Positions 12,621 through 20,177 are shown, counted from the stretch's first letter. The stretch is 64,000 nucleotides of DNA from Planctomycetota bacterium (GCA_963204725.1 CAUJHH010000037.1:1-64000); one strand, 5' to 3'. Numbers and translations are program-made. The notes: generated by a model from the sequence alone, not told the origin.

Positions 12621-12694
12621 GGGCGCATAGCTCAGTTGGCTAGAGCGCGGCTGTCACATAGCCGAGGTCACAGGTTCGAGTCCTGTTGCGCCCA
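12621..12694 (+). tRNA. tRNA-Val (anticodon CAC)
   Basis: The cloverleaf closes fully. The acceptor arm is GGGCGCA/TGCGCCC, the D arm GCTC/GAGC, the anticodon arm CGGCT/AGCCG with loop GTCACAT, and the T arm ACAGG/CCTGT with loop TTCGAGT. U33 precedes CAC and A37 follows it, so the anticodon reads GUG valine codons. The 3' CCA is not encoded. The 3' half is read on the other strand as the C-terminus of an integrase, which marks it as the probable attachment site of the element that follows. Confidence 0.93.
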
Positions 12695-13960
12695 TTGGTT
12701 CGATTCGCAGTGATTCGCGAGCACTCGCAGGATCACGCGCAACGTTCCCGACACGCGAGACTTCCGAGCGTTTCTTCGATTCCTTGCGAATCGGAGCCGT
12801 TGGGTGCTGCGCCGCGTTTTGCGCCGCGGGTGCGCCCGATTCTGCGCCACTTGTGGGGCGTCCGGCCGCGAGGTCGAAGTGAGCATCGCGCGTTTGCAAA
12901 TAATGCTGAGCGGCGATCAGCGGGGAGTGGCCGAGCCACTTCGCGACGGCGTGGGCGGGGAACCGCTCCACCCAGTCGGTAGCGCACGAGGCGCGGAGGT
13001 TGTGGAAGGGGCGGGGCCAAGTGCTTTCGCCAGCGCGGGCGATGATCTTCGCGAAGGTCGTGCGCAGATTCACGCCCGGCTCGCGCAGGCGCGGGAGCAT
13101 GGCGTCGATGCCGGGCTCGGCGTGGTTGAAGAGCGCGGTCAGGATGCCAAAGAGTTCGGGTGCGATCGGCACCACGCGCTGGGCGTGTCCCTCGTGCGCC
13201 GCGGTCTTGGGGCTTCGCACGGTCAAGCGAGCCCGCTCCCAGTTCACGTCCGACCACTTCAACCCGAGCAACTCGGAGGGGCAGCGGAGCCCGGCGAAGC
13301 GGCAGAGAGCGATGATCGCGCGCCATTGGTTGTCCGGGCACGCTTCAAGAATGGCGTTGACCGTCGCGAGGGGGATGTAGTGCGCCCGCTCTGGGTTGCA
13401 CTGCGAGCCGGATCGGAGGTCGGCGAAGGGGCTGGAGTCGATGATCCCCCATCGCACGGCCTTGCGGAAGACGCCCTTCGCCACGTTCACGCGCTTTGCG
13501 ACGGTTGCGGGCGCGAGCCCCTCGTCGGCGATCGCCTTGCGCCAGCGGTCAGCGTCGGCGGGTGTCAATGCATTGACGGGCGTGTCCGCGCCGAGATGCT
13601 CGCGCAGACTCCCGGTTGCCTGTCGGTATGCCGCACGAGTGGTTTCCTTGACGACGCCCGCGTTCTCGAAGCGATCGAGCAGAGTGCCGAGCGTAGTGCG
13701 GGCTTCGGATGCTCTTGGATCGGCGAGCCCGGCGCGGACGAGTCGCTCGTGCATGGTGCCGGAGAGACCGGCGAGCCAATCAGCAAGGGATGCGTCGGGG
13801 CTTGGTTGAAGGCGCGAGCCGAGATGAGCGCATCGACCCGGATGCGAAACTTCTCGGCGTAGTCCATAGCGCACTTCCCGAGCCGGATCGTGCGGCGTGC
13901 ATCGACGGGGCCGAACGTGATTCGCTTGCGGGCGTCGGGATCGCGGATGATGCTGGACAT
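12654..13960 (-). pseudogene. Tyrosine recombinase (integrase), apparent frameshift
   Basis: Site-specific integrase of the tyrosine family. The catalytic set is present in the C-terminal part: Arg in GLRCPSELLGLKW, Lys in SPKT, HNLR, WLGHS and the nucleophile in HYLQT. The N-terminal arm-binding part lies in another frame: an ATG at 13960, after GAAGGAAGGTG, reads MSSIIRDPDARKRITFGP and continues to about FNQA. The other frame resumes with PDASLADWLAGLSG. The frames meet at a C4 run (13797-13800 on the plus strand); one extra base would restore one protein of about 435 residues. This is either a real frameshift mutation or a homopolymer error. The C-terminal MGATGLEPVTSAM is the antisense reading of the tRNA-Val 3' half. 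Confidence 0.85.
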
Positions 13961-14054
13961 GGGGTTCACCTTCCTTCGATGGGTGCATTATGCGAGACTG
14001 TGCGAGAAAGCGCAAGGGGGTGCGAGGGATTGCTTTGCAGATTGTGCCGCTTTC

Positions 14055-14071
14055 GGCGGAATCGAACCGCC
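14055..14071 (-). other. tRNA T-arm-like stem-loop
   Basis: On the minus strand GGCGG-TTCGATT-CCGCC forms a perfect 5-bp stem with a 7-base T-loop-like sequence. I could not build a full cloverleaf around it, because no 5' acceptor partner is present. It may be a tRNA 3'-end remnant left by an earlier integration, or chance. Confidence 0.3.
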
Positions 14072-14072
14072 C

Positions 14073-14146
14073 TAGACCGCCAAGACCGCCAACGTCTGCC
14101 CTTTAGGGAATCTCGGCGGTCTATGGGGTGGGTGGCGGTCTATGGG
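14073..14146. repeat. Iteron-like GGCGGTCT repeats, direct and inverted
   Basis: Two identical copies of GGCGGTCTATGGG lie at 14115-14127 and 14134-14146, 19 bases apart. Two inverted copies of the core lie at 14073-14081 (TAGACCGCC) and 14083-14090 (AGACCGCC). The set sits between the integrase and the replication gene and overlaps the 3' end of the latter. The arrangement could be a replication origin, arm sites for the integrase, or a terminator region. Confidence 0.6.
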
Positions 14147-15815
14147 CCGGAAGTGCCCACACCCAACGCCCGGAATCTCCGAACCCCTCGCGGTCCGGAA
14201 CGATGCCGAGCGCGGCCTTCGCGCGTTCGAGGGTGCGCCACTTGATCCCGTCCGCATCGGCTCGCTCGCGCAGTTCGGTTGCGGGGACGGGACCATCGGC
14301 GAGACCGAAACGGAGCCACTCGGTCGCCTCACCTTCGCGCGATTCACGCCCCGACCCTTCGGGCTCCGAGCGCACGAGATCATCGGCGGAGAGGTTTACC
14401 GGGCCGGAAAGCCACTCCACGCGGGGAACGTCGCCCACGATGCGGAACGCGAGTCCGCTCGGATCGCGGGCGAGATTGCCTCCAACGGGCAAGACCACGC
14501 GCCGCTCGGGATCGGCAGGATCCGATCCGACGATGAAGATTGCACGCGCCGCCGCGTTCCACGCGAGAGAGCCGGTCGCGCGATAAATCGCTTTTCCACC
14601 CGAGCCGCCTTTATTGAGGTGAGTCACGAGGATGATCGCGACACGGTGCTTTGCCGCCAGAGCGGCGAGTGGGCCGAGCAGTCCGCGCACTTCTCCGTTC
14701 CGGTGTCCGTCGATTTTTCCTTCGAAGGCCGAAGCCGGATCGAGAATCACCACGCGGCAATCGGGAGTCGCGAGGATCGCTTCCTCCAGCGGGCCGATGT
14801 CCGCGAGCGTGAACCATCCCGATCCGCCGCGCGCCTTGCTCCGCTCCACTCCCGAGAGAGCAGTCACGCGCGACACGTCCGCGCCCGCCGCGTCCAGCCG
14901 GGGCCGAACTGTGTCGGCGAGGTCGTCTTCGGCATTGAGCAGGACCACGCCACCCGGCTCGTGCCGAGCGTCCGATTCCTCTGGGAAGGGGCGTCCGGTG
15001 GAAACTCGCGCGGCAATGTCGATCGTGAGCAGCGACTTCCCTTGCTTCGGGTCGCCCTGAATCACGGTGAGTTTCCCGAGCGGGATGCGATCGTGCCAAA
15101 GCCATTCGACGGCCTGTGGCTCCACGTCGGCGAGCCGCACGAGGATTGCGCGATCCGAGCCCGGAGGGAGTGACGCGTCGGACGGGTTCGGCGTGTGCGG
15201 CTTCGCACTTCGCGCCGCTTCGATCACGTCGTCGCGCGTCGCGCCAGCCGCAACCCACGCCCGGAGGTCTTTACGTTCCTTCGGTGGGAAGATGATTCGG
15301 ACCGATGCGCAGACTCCGACCAATGCATCGGCGATTGCCTGCGCGCCTGCGCGTCCCGCGCCCTTGTCATTCTCGGCGATGATGCAAACGTGAAGTCCCC
15401 GGAGCAACTTGGCGAGCAAGGGCTTTCCACCGTGCGCGCTCGGGCGTCCGACGATTTCGAGTAAGAGCCCCACGCCCGCCGCCGTATCGGATGCGCCTTC
15501 GACGATGAAGACCGGATCCTCTGGGGTGGAGCCCGCATAGGGCGGGAGCGGCCACTTCAACGTGAGCCCGCGAGTCCCTCGCGCCTTCGTCTTCCCTTCG
15601 TCGGGCCGTCTTGCGTATCCCGTGACTTCTCCCTCGGCGTTACGCTCGGGCGTCGTCCATGCGTCTCCCTCCCGAGTGGAGCCGAGAGCGAGCCACGCCC
15701 AAGAAACTGTCCCCTCGGGCGTCGGGAGGTCACTAGAATCTGCCGCACGGTTTGTGACTTTGACGCCTGCCCCGGTTGCCGCCGGGGCCGCGTCGTCAAT
15801 AGGGGGCTCCCTCAT
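14121..15815 (-). CDS. TOPRIM plus RecA-like (RepA/primase-type) replication protein
   Basis: A 564-residue protein of plasmid/satellite replication type. Residues about 100-190 form a TOPRIM domain (FIVEGASDTAAG with Glu106; ENDKGAGRAG). Residues about 235-480 form a RecA-like AAA_25 ATPase with Walker A GDPKQGKS (254-261), Walker B CRVVILDPAS and ILVTHLNKGG. The TOPRIM plus helicase pairing is typical of phage and satellite primase-helicases; the usual N-terminal zinc finger is missing. The ATG at 15815 follows GAAGGGAGG and overlaps the stop of the HTH gene. No essential motif is missing. Confidence 0.8.
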   Translation of the reverse strand: MREPPIDDAAPAATGAGVKVTNRAADSSDLPTPEGTVSWAWLALGSTREGDAWTTPERNAEGEVTGYARRPDEGKTKARGTRGLTLKWPLPPYAGSTPEDPVFIVEGASDTAAGVGLLLEIVGRPSAHGGKPLLAKLLRGLHVCIIAENDKGAGRAGAQAIADALVGVCASVRIIFPPKERKDLRAWVAAGATRDDVIEAARSAKPHTPNPSDASLPPGSDRAILVRLADVEPQAVEWLWHDRIPLGKLTVIQGDPKQGKSLLTIDIAARVSTGRPFPEESDARHEPGGVVLLNAEDDLADTVRPRLDAAGADVSRVTALSGVERSKARGGSGWFTLADIGPLEEAILATPDCRVVILDPASAFEGKIDGHRNGEVRGLLGPLAALAAKHRVAIILVTHLNKGGSGGKAIYRATGSLAWNAAARAIFIVGSDPADPERRVVLPVGGNLARDPSGLAFRIVGDVPRVEWLSGPVNLSADDLVRSEPEGSGRESREGEATEWLRFGLADGPVPATELRERADADGIKWRTLERAKAALGIVPDREGFGDSGRWVWALPAHRPPPTP

Positions 15816-16036
15816 GCCGCACCTCCCTTCGTGCGGGAGTCCACCCACTCGCGAAGCGCAGCGACGTTGAGCAGGACGCGCCGCCCGATGCGCGTGTGGG
15901 GAATCTCATTGGCGTTCGTGAGCGTCCAGAGCGTGCGCGTTGAGATGCCGAGCATCTTCGCGCCCTCGTGCATCCCGATCAGGATTGCCGAGTCGGGTGT
16001 CCGTTCCGTCGTGTGTGTCTTCGATCCGTCGTGCAT
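15812..16036 (-). CDS. Excisionase-type helix-turn-helix protein
   Basis: A 74-residue DNA-binding protein. GMHEGAKMLGISTRTLWTL followed by HTRIGRRVLLNVAALREWV is the MerR-like winged HTH of the DNA-binding excisionase family. The ATG at 16036 has GGAG 6 bases upstream; the frame is open for 7 more codons. It overlaps the replication gene by 4 bases, so the two are one transcription unit. It may act as a directionality factor or as a repressor/activator of the replication gene. Confidence 0.8.
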   Translation of the reverse strand: MHDGSKTHTTERTPDSAILIGMHEGAKMLGISTRTLWTLTNANEIPHTRIGRRVLLNVAALREWVDSRTKGGAA

Positions 16037-16129
16037 GGGCTGTCTCCATCGCGCCACCGTCGGCGCGTGATGGAGTCAAGCCGTATCGGATCGCATTGTG
16101 AAGCGCGGAGCGTGGGCTGTCACGCCTTG

Positions 16130-16654
16130 TCACGCTCGCTCGAATTTGTAGAGTCTCAACACGTCGGCCTTGCAGTAGTGATTCTGCCGATCAATCTTCA
16201 CGGCGCGAATCTTTCCGCGATGGAGTGCCTGCCGAAGTCGCTCGGCACTTATGCTCAACGAATCGAAGTAGATCGCGGGATACCACTCATTCTCCGCTAG
16301 CGTTCGGGTGAGCAGTTCATCGACAACCAGTGCGATGAGTACGCGAAACTCAACTTCGTGAAGTAGACCGGGAAACGCTCGCTCGGCTTCGAGAATGGTG
16401 GAGAAGTCATCTACGAAATCTGCAAAGGCCGGTGTCATGGACGCGGAGAGTCGAGAAGGGTCTTGAGTCGGATGCACGCGATTCAGAATTGCGTTATAGC
16501 GACGGGCGATTCGGAGGCGAGGGCCCGACAGTCCCTTCGTCGATGCTGCAAAGAGATCAGGGATTGCTTCGCGTATGTTCTCGCGTGCAAGTGCCTCGCG
16601 TTCCTCGTGCGAAGTGGTCACGCGTTTACGCGTTGTATCCTTGCGACTCGCCAT
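16130..16654 (-). CDS. Element-borne protein with HTH-like C-terminus, unknown
   Basis: I do not recognise this 174-residue protein. The N-terminus is basic and helical (KRVTTSHEEREALARENI). The C-terminus, SISAERLRQALHRGKIRAVK followed by QNHYCKADVLRL, resembles the wing and recognition helix of an HTH domain, so DNA binding is possible. It lies about 90 bp upstream of the excisionase gene on the same strand and diverges from the next gene across 35 bp. A role as element regulator or cargo is a guess. No signal or membrane segments. Confidence 0.6.
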   Translation of the reverse strand: MASRKDTTRKRVTTSHEEREALARENIREAIPDLFAASTKGLSGPRLRIARRYNAILNRVHPTQDPSRLSASMTPAFADFVDDFSTILEAERAFPGLLHEVEFRVLIALVVDELLTRTLAENEWYPAIYFDSLSISAERLRQALHRGKIRAVKIDRQNHYCKADVLRLYKFERA

Positions 16655-16689
16655 TGCTGCGAGTGTACCGCTTCGCATATGCTTGCGTC

Positions 16690-17481
16690 ATGCCGCACTA
16701 TCTCGTCAAGGGTGCCCGCAAGTCTGATGCCACGAGCAAGACCATCGTGGTACACGCTCCGTCGAAGCGTGAAGCGATCGAGTTAGCCAACGGACACGGG
16801 CTCTTCGTTGCGAGCGTTGAAGCACTGGACGCGGGCGAACCCGAACGGCACGATGCGGGTCACTCGTCGGCGATCCGTCCCCTTTGCACAATGCTTCGAG
16901 ACGCGGGGCGCGTCCAAGATGGAATCGAGGTCTTGCTGTGGACCTACGAGATGGATGCCGCTTCGGGTGGCCAGTCGCCTATGGAGGCATATCTGCGAGT
17001 GCCCAAGTACCTCGCTCATGCCAAGCGATTCGATGAGGCAATCCAGTACCTTCACCGGATGAAACGCGGGGGGGTTGTCGGATGGCCGATCGAAGAGATG
17101 GGACCGCACGGACTCGCCGAGGTGTATTGGTGTCTAGAAGAGCAGTATGGTCAGCAAGACGACGAAAGCAGATCGTCGCTTTACGGCTGTCTCGGCGGCG
17201 TTGGCCAACTTGCCAATCTCTACTACAGGACAAGCGAGTCGGTACGATCGGGCGGTTCACCACGCGAGAACGATCCCATTCAGTCATTGGCGGAGGTACT
17301 GGAGTCGGCCATCGGAATGCTGACCGAAGTTGCTGACGATGCTGCCAACTGCGAGCGTGTGGCCCGCTCTCTCTTCAAGTGCGACGGCTGGATCGACTAC
17401 CAAACCGCCACGAGCATCGCGGTTCGGGCGGAAGTCGAAGTCGCCGGGTTGCTTCGGTGCCCGATCCCCAGTCGAGTGTGA
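16690..17481 (+). CDS. Hypothetical protein, possible cargo of the element
   Basis: I do not recognise this 263-residue protein. The first 45 residues (YLVKGARKSDATSKTIVVHA ... LFVASVEAL) look like a small alpha/beta domain seen at the N-terminus of some planctomycete proteins. The rest is helical and partly TPR-like (YLAHAKRFDEAIQYLHRM), with several Trp and Cys residues. I start at the ATG at 16690; the open frame before it overlaps the divergent gene. It is the only rightward gene of the element, so it is a candidate accessory function. No catalytic motif was seen. Confidence 0.6.
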   Translation: MPHYLVKGARKSDATSKTIVVHAPSKREAIELANGHGLFVASVEALDAGEPERHDAGHSSAIRPLCTMLRDAGRVQDGIEVLLWTYEMDAASGGQSPMEAYLRVPKYLAHAKRFDEAIQYLHRMKRGGVVGWPIEEMGPHGLAEVYWCLEEQYGQQDDESRSSLYGCLGGVGQLANLYYRTSESVRSGGSPRENDPIQSLAEVLESAIGMLTEVADDAANCERVARSLFKCDGWIDYQTATSIAVRAEVEVAGLLRCPIPSRV

Positions 17482-17524
17482 TGCGGAGGGGAAGAGAGGT
17501 CAGTGGCGCGAAGGACTCACGCGA

Positions 17525-18859
17525 TCAGCAGCCAAGCGAGTACGAATCGAGAAAATCGAGAAAATCGAGGATGTCAACGATCCCATCGGAGTTGACGTCG
17601 GCATTGCCGAGGGAGCCGCACGGTGAGATTGCTTGTTCGCATACCGAGAAATCGTCGAGGAAGTCAAGGAAGTCGATAATGTCGATGAGCCCGTCGCAGT
17701 TGTAGTTCGAGAGGCACGCGAGAGGTTCACCCCACCGAGCAAGGCCCTTGAAAGCGATCCCCTGCGCGGACGGAATGCTGCCACCGGCGAACACGTCTCC
17801 ATTGGGCATTTCAACAAGTGCGAATACGCCCGCAACCGTTCCGACGCCCGAAATCCCGGAGCCGAAGGGAAGCCACGCGGAACCATCCCAGCGGGCTATG
17901 TAGTGCGCAGCCGAGCCGTTTGCGGTCTGAAAGTGTCCACCCGCGATCAAGTGTCCACCCGAAACAGAAATCACGGAATCGACGCGCCGATTGGTACCGG
18001 AGCCAAGCGAAGTCCATGAAGTACCGTCCCAGACGGCAATGTTGGGGGTTGCAACTCCACCGGCTTCGGAGAACGCGCCAGCCGCCACAAGCGAGCCATT
18101 CTCCATCTCTGTGATTGAATACACGATCCCGTTCGGTCCCGAGCCCAACGACGTCCATTCGTCCTCAGACCAAAGAGCAATTCTGTCGGCGGAATGACCA
18201 CCCGCCGCGTCAAAGTTGCCACCCGCAACTAGTGTGCCGTTGCTCGTCACCAGCAATGACGTAACCCACGAGTTCATTTGGCTATCAATCGAATGCCATT
18301 CGGTACCATCCCACCTCGCGATGAATCTGGCCTCAGTTCCATCGGCGAGCGGCAGGTAGAAGTTCCCACCAGCCACGAGGTCTCCGTTTGGAAGCACTGC
18401 CAGCGCATAGACCAGTTCGGCCCCTTCCCCGATGCCCGTGCCGAGCGGATTCCACGTCGCTCCATCCCATCGCGCGACGTTGCTTACAGGGACACCTCCC
18501 GCATCCCAAAACCGCCCCCCCGCAACGAGATCGCCATTGGGCATCGCCACGATGGAATGAACGTGTCCAGTGATTTGCCCGTTGAAACCTCTCCATGTTC
18601 CGGTAACGGGATTCCAAGCCGCAATCTGTCCGAACACTTCTGACCCCTCAACCACGCCGAAGTCACCTCCGACTACTAGGTGGGTCGGCTCCGGTCCGGC
18701 TCCATCGGGATCCCACGTCGTGAGGGCATCGACAACCCCTCCTCCAATCCACGGGATCCCGACTCCATTGAGCCAGCGGGGCGTGCATTGGGCAAACGTC
18801 GGCAGGGAGCCGCATGCCAAAGCGATGAGGGCAACGCGCCTTAGAGCATTCTCACTCAT
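17525..18859 (-). CDS. Secreted propeller-like protein with GC-type dockerin
   Basis: This 444-residue protein has a signal peptide (MSENALRRVALIALACGSL...FAQC). The body repeats a unit of about 45 residues with the pattern W-x-x-LGSG...V-x-x-L...NGxLVAGGxF (for example SLGSGPNGIVYSI, SLGSGTNRRVDSV, PLGTGIGEGAELVYAL), consistent with a beta-propeller. The C-terminus carries two dockerin-like calcium loops (NCDGLIDIIDFLDFLDDF and DVNSDGIVDILDFLDFLDSY), the GC-type dockerin typical of Phycisphaerae. The start overlaps the IS630 transposase end by 8 bases and has no Shine-Dalgarno, so its native control region was probably displaced by the insertion. Function unknown; surface-associated is likely. 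Confidence 0.85.
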   Translation of the reverse strand: MSENALRRVALIALACGSLPTFAQCTPRWLNGVGIPWIGGGVVDALTTWDPDGAGPEPTHLVVGGDFGVVEGSEVFGQIAAWNPVTGTWRGFNGQITGHVHSIVAMPNGDLVAGGRFWDAGGVPVSNVARWDGATWNPLGTGIGEGAELVYALAVLPNGDLVAGGNFYLPLADGTEARFIARWDGTEWHSIDSQMNSWVTSLLVTSNGTLVAGGNFDAAGGHSADRIALWSEDEWTSLGSGPNGIVYSITEMENGSLVAAGAFSEAGGVATPNIAVWDGTSWTSLGSGTNRRVDSVISVSGGHLIAGGHFQTANGSAAHYIARWDGSAWLPFGSGISGVGTVAGVFALVEMPNGDVFAGGSIPSAQGIAFKGLARWGEPLACLSNYNCDGLIDIIDFLDFLDDFSVCEQAISPCGSLGNADVNSDGIVDILDFLDFLDSYSLGC

Positions 18860-19786
18860 CGCGTAGCGTGTATCCGCAGTGTTTGAAGCAGTGAGCGGCG
18901 TCCTGGGAGGTGACCTGATCCAGAACGGTCTGCATGGCGGCCCAGAGGGCGTCACGGGTCCTGCACGCCATCGACCGCAGCAGCTGCTTGATCTTGGAGA
19001 AGACCATCTCGATGGGGTTGAGATCGGGCGAGTAGGGCGGAAGGAACGCCAGGGTCGCGCCGCGTGACTCGATGAGCCGTCGTGCACGCTCGCTCTTGTG
19101 GCTGGAGAGGTTGTCCAGCACGACGATGTCCCCGGGCCGCAGCTCGTGCACGAGGATGTCCTGGACGAACGCGTCGAAGAACTGGCGGTCGATGGCCCCG
19201 TCCACCACCATCGAGCAGCGCACCCCTTCCACGCCCAGGGCCGCGATGAGCGTCGTGGTCTTCCAGTGCCCGTGCGGGACTCTGGCGACCAGCCGCTCGC
19301 CGCGCGGGGCCCGCCCCCGCAGCCGTGTCATGTTGGTCTTGGCCCAGGTCTCGTCGATGAAGATCAGCCGCCCGGCGTTGAGACTGCTCTGCTCGCCCTT
19401 CCACTCCTGACGCCGCTGCGCGACATCGGCCCGCTCCTGCTCGGCCGCATGGATCGTCTTTTTTTGAAGGACAGCCCGAGCGTGCGGAGGGTCTTGGAGA
19501 TCGCCGATTCGCCGCAGACGTTCCCCAGCAATCCACGCAGCTCCCTGAGCGTCGCGTCGGGCCGCTGGCGGACCAGTTCGGCCAGGTGCTCGCGGTCGAT
19601 CTTGCGAACGCCGGGAGAGCCCGTCTTCCGCGGCGAAGACTCGCCGCGTTCCTGCAGCCGCTGCTTGACGCGTCGTGCCCAGGCGGGACTGACCTCGAAC
19701 AGACGTGCGATCTGCGACGTGGTCATGCCGCGCTGGTAGGCGCGGATGACCCGATCGCGAAGGTCCTGGGAGTACGCCGCGCCCAT
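18852..19786 (-). CDS. IS630-family transposase, made by -1 frameshifting
   Basis: DDE transposase of about 310 residues encoded in two overlapping frames. Frame one has the N-terminal HTH (MGAAYSQDLRDRVIRAYQRG, TTSQIARLFEVSPAWARRV) up to LGLSFKK. Frame two continues KTIHAAEQ and has the catalytic region: FIDETWAK, IVVLDNLSSHKS and PPYSPDLNPIE. The frames join at a run of seven A (19459-19465), where a slip of -1 gives SFKKKTIHAAEQ, the sequence expected for the family. Such A-rich slippery runs are a known way to make full-length transposase in IS elements. The last codons may lie in flanking DNA. Confidence 0.88.
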
Positions 19787-19881
19787 CCGTGAAGCTCCTG
19801 TCTTGCACATCCCTCGTGCAACACACAAGCTACACCGCACATCCGCCTGGCGCAATACCAACCACGCGCCGTACCGCGCTA
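18864..19881 (-). mobile_element. IS630-family insertion sequence
   Basis: About 1.0 kb. A TA at 18864-18865 is followed inward by GCGTGTATCC. At the other end a TA at 19880-19881 reads inward (minus strand) GCGCGGTACG. Both outer flanks are CGCG, so the target may have been CGCGTACGCG, with TA duplicated as usual for IS630. A second possible upstream end is the TA at 19831-19832, with inward sequence GCTTGTGTGT, which pairs slightly better with the left end. The terminal repeats are weak in both models, so the upstream boundary is uncertain. Confidence 0.7.
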
Positions 19882-20177
19882 CGCGTTCGGTGGAAACGCT
19901 CTATTGGGTATGTGTGGCAGTCGAAAACCTCTTGATCGATCATCGCCTGATCGTACATCTCTCGCGCGCGATCGCTCACGCATTCAGGTCTTGTGATTTG
20001 CACGGCGTGCTCGACGCTGTCGGGTCGCCACCCGAAACTCTGCACATCGTGCCGCGCACGTTCGGTCGCCTCTTCGAGCGAGCCCGCGACGATCCAGCAG
20101 TTGATGTACGCGCCCCCGATACGGCCGTGGTCTGGCGACTCGCGCGATGGACTCGCGTGCAGGCGGATGAGAAACAT
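19830..20177 (-). CDS. Conserved hypothetical protein, possibly truncated by the IS
   Basis: This 115-residue protein has the look of a real small cytoplasmic protein: GGAYINCWIVAGSLEEATER, a helix, GWRPDSVEHAV and MIDQEVFDCHTYP near the end. I chose the ATG at 20177. The part after CHTYPIERFHRT is arginine-rich and may be insertion-sequence DNA, because one model places the IS630 end inside this codon range. Without the insertion the frame would end IERFHRTRTR at a TGA overlapping the dockerin ATG. Function unknown. Confidence 0.55.
   Translation of the reverse strand: MFLIRLHASPSRESPDHGRIGGAYINCWIVAGSLEEATERARHDVQSFGWRPDSVEHAVQITRPECVSDRAREMYDQAMIDQEVFDCHTYPIERFHRTRSAVRRVVGIAPGGCAV

Follow-up and report, generated by a model that had tools for sequence, protein, structure and literature searches.

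A small integrative element at a planctomycete tRNA-Val gene and its phage-satellite-like relatives across Planctomycetota

The window element carries an integrase, a replication gene and an excisionase-type gene at tRNA-Val

We analysed a window of 64,000 nt from a Planctomycetota bacterium (GCA_963204725.1 CAUJHH010000037.1:1-64000) and found an integrative element that is likely to belong to a family, spread across Planctomycetota, of small elements that integrate at tRNA genes and resemble phage satellites. An earlier note on this DNA had proposed a small, satellite-like element at tRNA-Val with an integrase, a replication gene, an HTH gene and varying cargo, and that proposal is strongly supported by the analyses below. 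The integration target is a tRNA-Val (CAC) gene at 12621-12694 on the (+) strand (ARAGORN, Rfam). Its 3′ half doubles as the 3′ end of int (12654-13960, − strand), as the earlier note had recognised, and int encodes a tyrosine integrase of the Phage_integrase type (PF00589, 1.2e-13). The attL core spans 35 bp (12673-12707, + strand) and is the same as positions 884-918 of C23, another contig of this genome; its tRNA-derived part also occurs in the attR of G001 and in the empty site of G002, two genomes of the same genus. Four copies of TGCGCC, at 12808, 12820, 12831 and 12843 (12808-12848), lie within the int 3′ coding region and are putative left arm sites of the integrase. The N-terminal part of int (start codon 13960-13958) and its catalytic part sit in different frames. 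As both parts share a single frame in G001 and other relatives, so that intact copies exist, the window int appears to be frameshifted near 13795, or else misread; the same relatives rule out a programmed frameshift. A recurrent one-codon gap between int and the gene upstream of it was also considered and discarded: several elements have a small regulator-like gene ending beside int.

Between int and the replication gene are iteron-like repeats, three copies of TAGACCGCC at 14066-14146. The motif occurs nowhere else in the 64 kb window (0.26 expected window-wide), its three copies are packed into 70 bp, and they are a candidate replication origin or operator. The replication gene, rep (14121-15848, − strand), encodes an AAA_25 RecA-like helicase with a primase-like N-terminal part (Pfam PF13481, 4.2e-35) and matches the PHROG primase/helicase profile phrog_239 (1.5e-23). 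It had been described as a TOPRIM plus RecA-like protein; the RecA-like assignment held in Pfam, and TOPRIM appeared only through PHROG primase profiles and not in Pfam. A PDB sequence search with the window rep as query returned no match. Next is xis (15812-16057, − strand), an HTH_17 excisionase/AlpA-type regulator gene (Pfam PF12728, 4e-11; phrog_66), in agreement with the excisionase-type HTH protein read earlier, followed by the two further divergent genes that had been noted, at 16130-16678 (− strand) and 16690-17481 (+ strand). A cargo gene for a dockerin/beta-propeller secreted protein (17525-18841, − strand) has lost its 5′ end to an IS630-family insertion with TA ends and HTH and DDE_3 transposase ORFs (18842-19903). 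Pfam and PHROG scans recognised no capsid or conjugation gene in the window element, as had been claimed, and the PHROG scan recognised no TerS or other packaging-hijack gene in it.

The right end of the element lies on another contig

The earlier note placed the end of the element at about 17.5 kb and looked to a direct repeat of the tRNA 3′ end on that side. A repeat search found no second copy to the right within the window, and the sole other exact copy genome-wide is on contig C23, which starts inside the same IS630. Its position outside the window is explained by a misjoin of the window contig at the IS630 (18842-19903), a repeat whose ends close ten other contig ends of the genome. Of the available flanks, C23 alone supplies the beta-propeller gene with a start codon that is in frame and correctly placed, and by eye a GGAG stretch can be seen ahead of this restored start codon. 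In G001, the oxidoreductase gene found beyond the IS in the window is 1.58 Mb from the tRNA-Val locus, and in G001 and G002 alike the contig that continues this gene across the IS is C22. The sequence right of the IS thus belongs elsewhere in the genome, with C22 as its syntenic continuation. Further, C23:589-911 and the right end of the G001 element are 69% identical in an alignment that takes in the arm sites and runs through the core, and C23 has two TGCGCC copies, at 823 and 835. It is very improbable that the contig is instead correctly assembled, with the right boundary inside the window, at about 17.5 kb, beyond which the oxidoreductase genes and the IS630 would be native neighbours: the contig is continuous through the IS, as such an arrangement would require, but that arrangement is at odds with the ten contig ends that stop at IS630 ends, with the distant oxidoreductase gene and its continuation on C22, and with a split dockerin gene that gains its start codon at the right place only from C23.

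Given the misjoin, the element reaches past 17500, through the IS-broken dockerin/beta-propeller gene, and its true right end is at C23:883; the end at 17.5 kb is accordingly abandoned. From the start codon, the synteny with G001 and G002 and the C23 homology, we put the element at ~8.0 kb including the IS, comprising 12673-19903 and C23:139-883. A piece of a further integrase end, ~108 bp long, lies to the right of the C23 core; counted with the core, 142 bp match the window at 93% identity, and the piece is probably the remnant of a second, older element in tandem. Farther along C23 (locus L010, 884-17100), the truncated integrase end is followed by a cluster of RND metal-efflux, mechanosensitive channel and copper-ATPase genes, perhaps cargo of the older element.

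Filled and empty sites in the genus

Comparison with related genomes bore out the mobility of the locus, as two relatives within the genus lack the block at this position, and one of them has a clean empty site. G001 carries a different element, of 15.3 kb and with a 20-bp repeat at its ends, in the same tRNA-Val; when its flanks are joined they reproduce the native empty site of G002, with VCA0040-like neighbour genes that are 90% identical. The integrase is likewise absent from the tRNA-Val site of G003. A search of the window's own genome yielded no VCA0040-like native neighbour. That genome holds a second element, of 5.57 kb, in a tRNA-Met gene with a perfect 47-bp repeat, around 10046-15618 of C52 (locus L011). 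Replication genes and integrases have different affinities here: in the integrase tree the window int is the sister of the G001 int, yet the G001 replication gene is of the HTH_36 type, and within the genus the window rep is closest to the rep of the C52 element (54% identical), whose int differs.

Related integrases occupy tRNA genes across Planctomycetota

Of 150 genomes in the taxonomic family, 117 have an integrase match, in many cases a distant one. Scanning GTDB genomes gave 80 loci, nearly all from Planctomycetota as judged by record title, and in 68 of these a tRNA lies at the int 3′ end. Two loci are titled as a gammaproteobacterium and Leptolyngbya (L148 and L152), with integrases of the planctomycete type; these are probably misnamed or contaminated MAGs. 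Among 22 screened loci, 17 have a repeat of the tRNA 3′ end, 14-47 bp long, at a distance of 4.6-15.3 kb. The type of tRNA requires 17 changes on the integrase tree, where the minimum would be 6. Many genomes carry sets of int, rep and HTH genes lodged at other tRNAs, so that neither of the two observations named as refuting in the earlier note was made, and the replication genes are swapped between elements, being DUF3987, AAA_25, Prim-Pol or HTH_36 (DUF3987 was seen in eight proteins of related elements, among the families listed).

Cargo across the elements includes type I R-M, GmrSD, a PD-T4-6-type kinase, DNA methylases and a UmuC-like polymerase, and several elements carry defence cargo. 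The pooled scan of element proteins also gave cbb3 oxidase matches (FixH, FixP, COX1), perhaps from the 15.0 kb stretch of L085; the cargo may be metabolic, or the L085 boundary may be set too far out. One of the 17 bounded elements, L069, has a TerS match (a small terminase homologue). L082 was suspected of carrying TerS as well, and TerS is not present in it. Among the families listed, the Pfam and PHROG scans of element proteins contained no relaxase or conjugation family.

Clustered repeats mark the ends of most elements

Most elements have paired or clustered 12-bp repeats (GTGCGCCGGATTCTGCGCCGC or TGTTGCCGGATTTGTTGCCGCC) near both ends, ~110-145 bp inside the int end and ~50-65 bp inside the opposite end, and we read them as putative integrase arm sites. 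No such repeats were found in L085, and only weak ones in L082, L084 and L086. Searching 163 genomes for a degenerate 19-bp paired form gave 39 occurrences, in 28 of the genomes, against 0 in a reversed control. The TTGCC type groups in one integrase clade on the tree. The position of the left arm sites inside the int coding region fits the recurrent AQN-AQ tail of the Int protein. Separately, a GGTTTTCC-like motif recurs ~25-30 bp ahead of the right core in L010, L021 and L185.

Circular relatives and the case for phage satellites

Two contigs from a virus-labelled collection, L185 and L186, begin and end in direct repeats, of 69 and 123 bp respectively, giving circles of 7286 and 7314 bp. 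Their integrases are 47-49% identical to the family query. By ORFs and matches among the loci, from which the gene names are taken, both encode int, xis, a DnaB-type helicase, an HTH_36-like protein, a prohead-protease-like protein and a small terminase homologue, with an additional HNH gene in L185; on the same basis no capsid, portal or large terminase was recognised in either. L185 has a 23-bp core without a tRNA, corresponding to attP. Its integrated relative is L137, from a planctomycete MAG, which is 6970 bp long, sits in tRNA-Val(TAC), has the identical 23-bp core and encodes an integrase 78% identical to that of L185; both flanks of the L185 attP align with the ends of the L137 element (80% and 72%). 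The terminase and protease genes of the circular contigs are not shared by L137 and L136. From their gene content, L185 and L186 are possible minimal satellites.

These circles bear on two other accounts of the family. The first is that the window element is a decayed prophage, what remains at this site of a complete phage whose structural genes have gone. A phage-type int, an excisionase, a primase/helicase and a frameshifted int would all fit such decay. We nevertheless regard this as improbable, since many tRNAs carry elements of 4.6-15 kb that are bounded on either side by exact repeats, the tRNA target switches repeatedly along the integrase tree, and relatives exist as 7.3 kb circles; so compact a family does not look like random decay. 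The second is that of an integrative plasmid or a genomic island, replicating in its excised state and moved by transformation, vesicles or mobilisation by conjugative plasmids, with no phage helper. This is a weightier alternative, although we hold it to be unlikely. Relatives of the AAA_25 rep are found on plasmids as well as phages, no TerS or capsid gene was recognised in the window copy, many members have no recognised packaging gene, and the same integration anatomy would be expected of an integrative plasmid or conjugation-independent island. It fits poorly with the scans, in which no relaxase or conjugation family was seen among those listed, with the TerS and prohead-protease-like genes of the circular relatives and the TerS of one bounded element, and with defence cargo, which is typical of satellites.

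The satellite reading is favoured for the window element by an own replication gene in the company of no complete virion gene set, and site-specific integration and excision in the family by the filled and empty pair of its sister element (G001 and G002) and the circular attP of a relative. We put at about even the chances of a broader proposal, namely that these elements form an undescribed, phylum-wide Planctomycetota phage-satellite family in which one integrase lineage moves between tRNA genes, replication modules are freely exchanged, and 7.3 kb circles have only a small terminase and a prohead protease (HNH in one), and would hence use the capsid, portal and large terminase of a helper.

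A proposed life cycle

The sequences of the element ends show that the integrase recombines a core of ~20-25 bp that runs from the T-arm to the tRNA 3′ end. Upon integration, the element's own 3′ copy restores the tRNA, and the displaced copy is left at the far end as attR. Excision would be carried out by Int bound at both the core and the arm sites and assisted by the HTH_17 protein as its excision factor, after which rep may replicate the circle from the repeats between rep and int. Spread would take place by packaging into helper-phage particles; we infer this step, and with it the helper dependence of the window element, because some members have TerS and a prohead-protease-like gene with no recognised capsid, and because the cargo is often anti-phage. 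The window copy probably cannot move by itself, given its frameshifted int and a cargo gene interrupted by IS630; this would not hold if an assembly error had produced the frameshift.

Relation to known mobile elements

The best-known satellites are those of proteobacterial and Gram-positive hosts, and the phages of Planctomycetota are little known. Our literature search found no satellites described for Planctomycetota, and the family is apparently new. The PICI and cfPICI phage satellites combine Int, AlpA/xis and a primase-type replication gene; the planctomycete family resembles them in the TerS of some relatives and in the prohead-protease-like gene (with HNH in one) of the circular ones, but differs in host phylum, gene order and arm sites, and no capsid, portal or large terminase is recognised in it. 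PICMI, the phage-inducible chromosomal minimalist islands of Vibrionaceae, have a type element of 6.1 kb next to fis (PMC10803314). They share with the planctomycete elements a small island format, an integrase (PF00589), an AlpA-type HTH (PF12728), a slot for defence cargo, the lack of a capsid gene and a primase, DUF3987 being present in many members of the planctomycete family. The window element itself has the PF00589 integrase (1.2e-13), though frameshifted, and the AlpA-type regulator (PF05930/PF12728; PF12728 at 4e-11), but its rep matches AAA_25 only and not the DUF3987/DUF5906 primase, and it is integrated at the tRNA-Val of a planctomycete and not at fis. As these two defining features differ, we do not count it as a PICMI.

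Tycheposons are tRNA-flanked tyrosine recombinase islands of 4-200 kb with variable, largely metabolic cargo in Prochlorococcus and other taxa (PMC10872708). Together with VEIMEs they are marine satellites (PMC10803314), and particle transfer is suspected for both (PMC10803314, PMC10872708). In these described features the window element agrees with tycheposons, being an island with a tyrosine recombinase that sits at a tRNA and has variable cargo. With integrative plasmids and mobilizable islands it shares the integrase, a plasmid-like rep gene and iteron-like repeats, but no relaxase or conjugation gene was recognised; nor were the relaxase and T4SS genes of ICEs and IMEs recognised among the window genes or the listed families of the relatives. 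With its precise ends (core and arm sites), its filled and empty sites, its circles and a 19-bp end signature that can be searched for, the family makes excision, helper dependence and defence cargo directly testable in Planctomycetota.

The two genes between xis and the dockerin gene

The genes at 16130-16678 and 16690-17481 had been singled out as the most promising novelty of the window. This emphasis has shifted to the family and its ends, as the first gene proved to be an orphan and the second a rare gene with a TPR-like product; neither matches a known defence family. No homologue of the 182 aa protein encoded at 16130-16678 turned up among 163 genomes of the taxonomic family, its sole profile signal is a weak C-terminal HTH_17-like match, and its structure model (mean pLDDT 49) is too uncertain for a structure search. 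The adjoining xis suggests that it is perhaps a regulator. Homologues of the 263 aa protein of 16690-17481 were found in two other genomes (G011 and G117), along with one weak match. The structure model of this protein (mean pLDDT 73) combines a small alpha-beta domain at the N-terminus with TPR-like helices, and Foldseek and VIA gave generic TPR matches only (E > 0.02, best Z 9.6). On the strength of sequence and model, this would be a rare TPR-like cargo protein.

A related protein of 272-682 aa, of unknown function, adjoins xis in nine elements, for example at L068:2835-4883, L081:6164-7252 and L085:12442-13518. These proteins have no Pfam match above the cut-off, and one member has a weak C-terminal winged-helix match.
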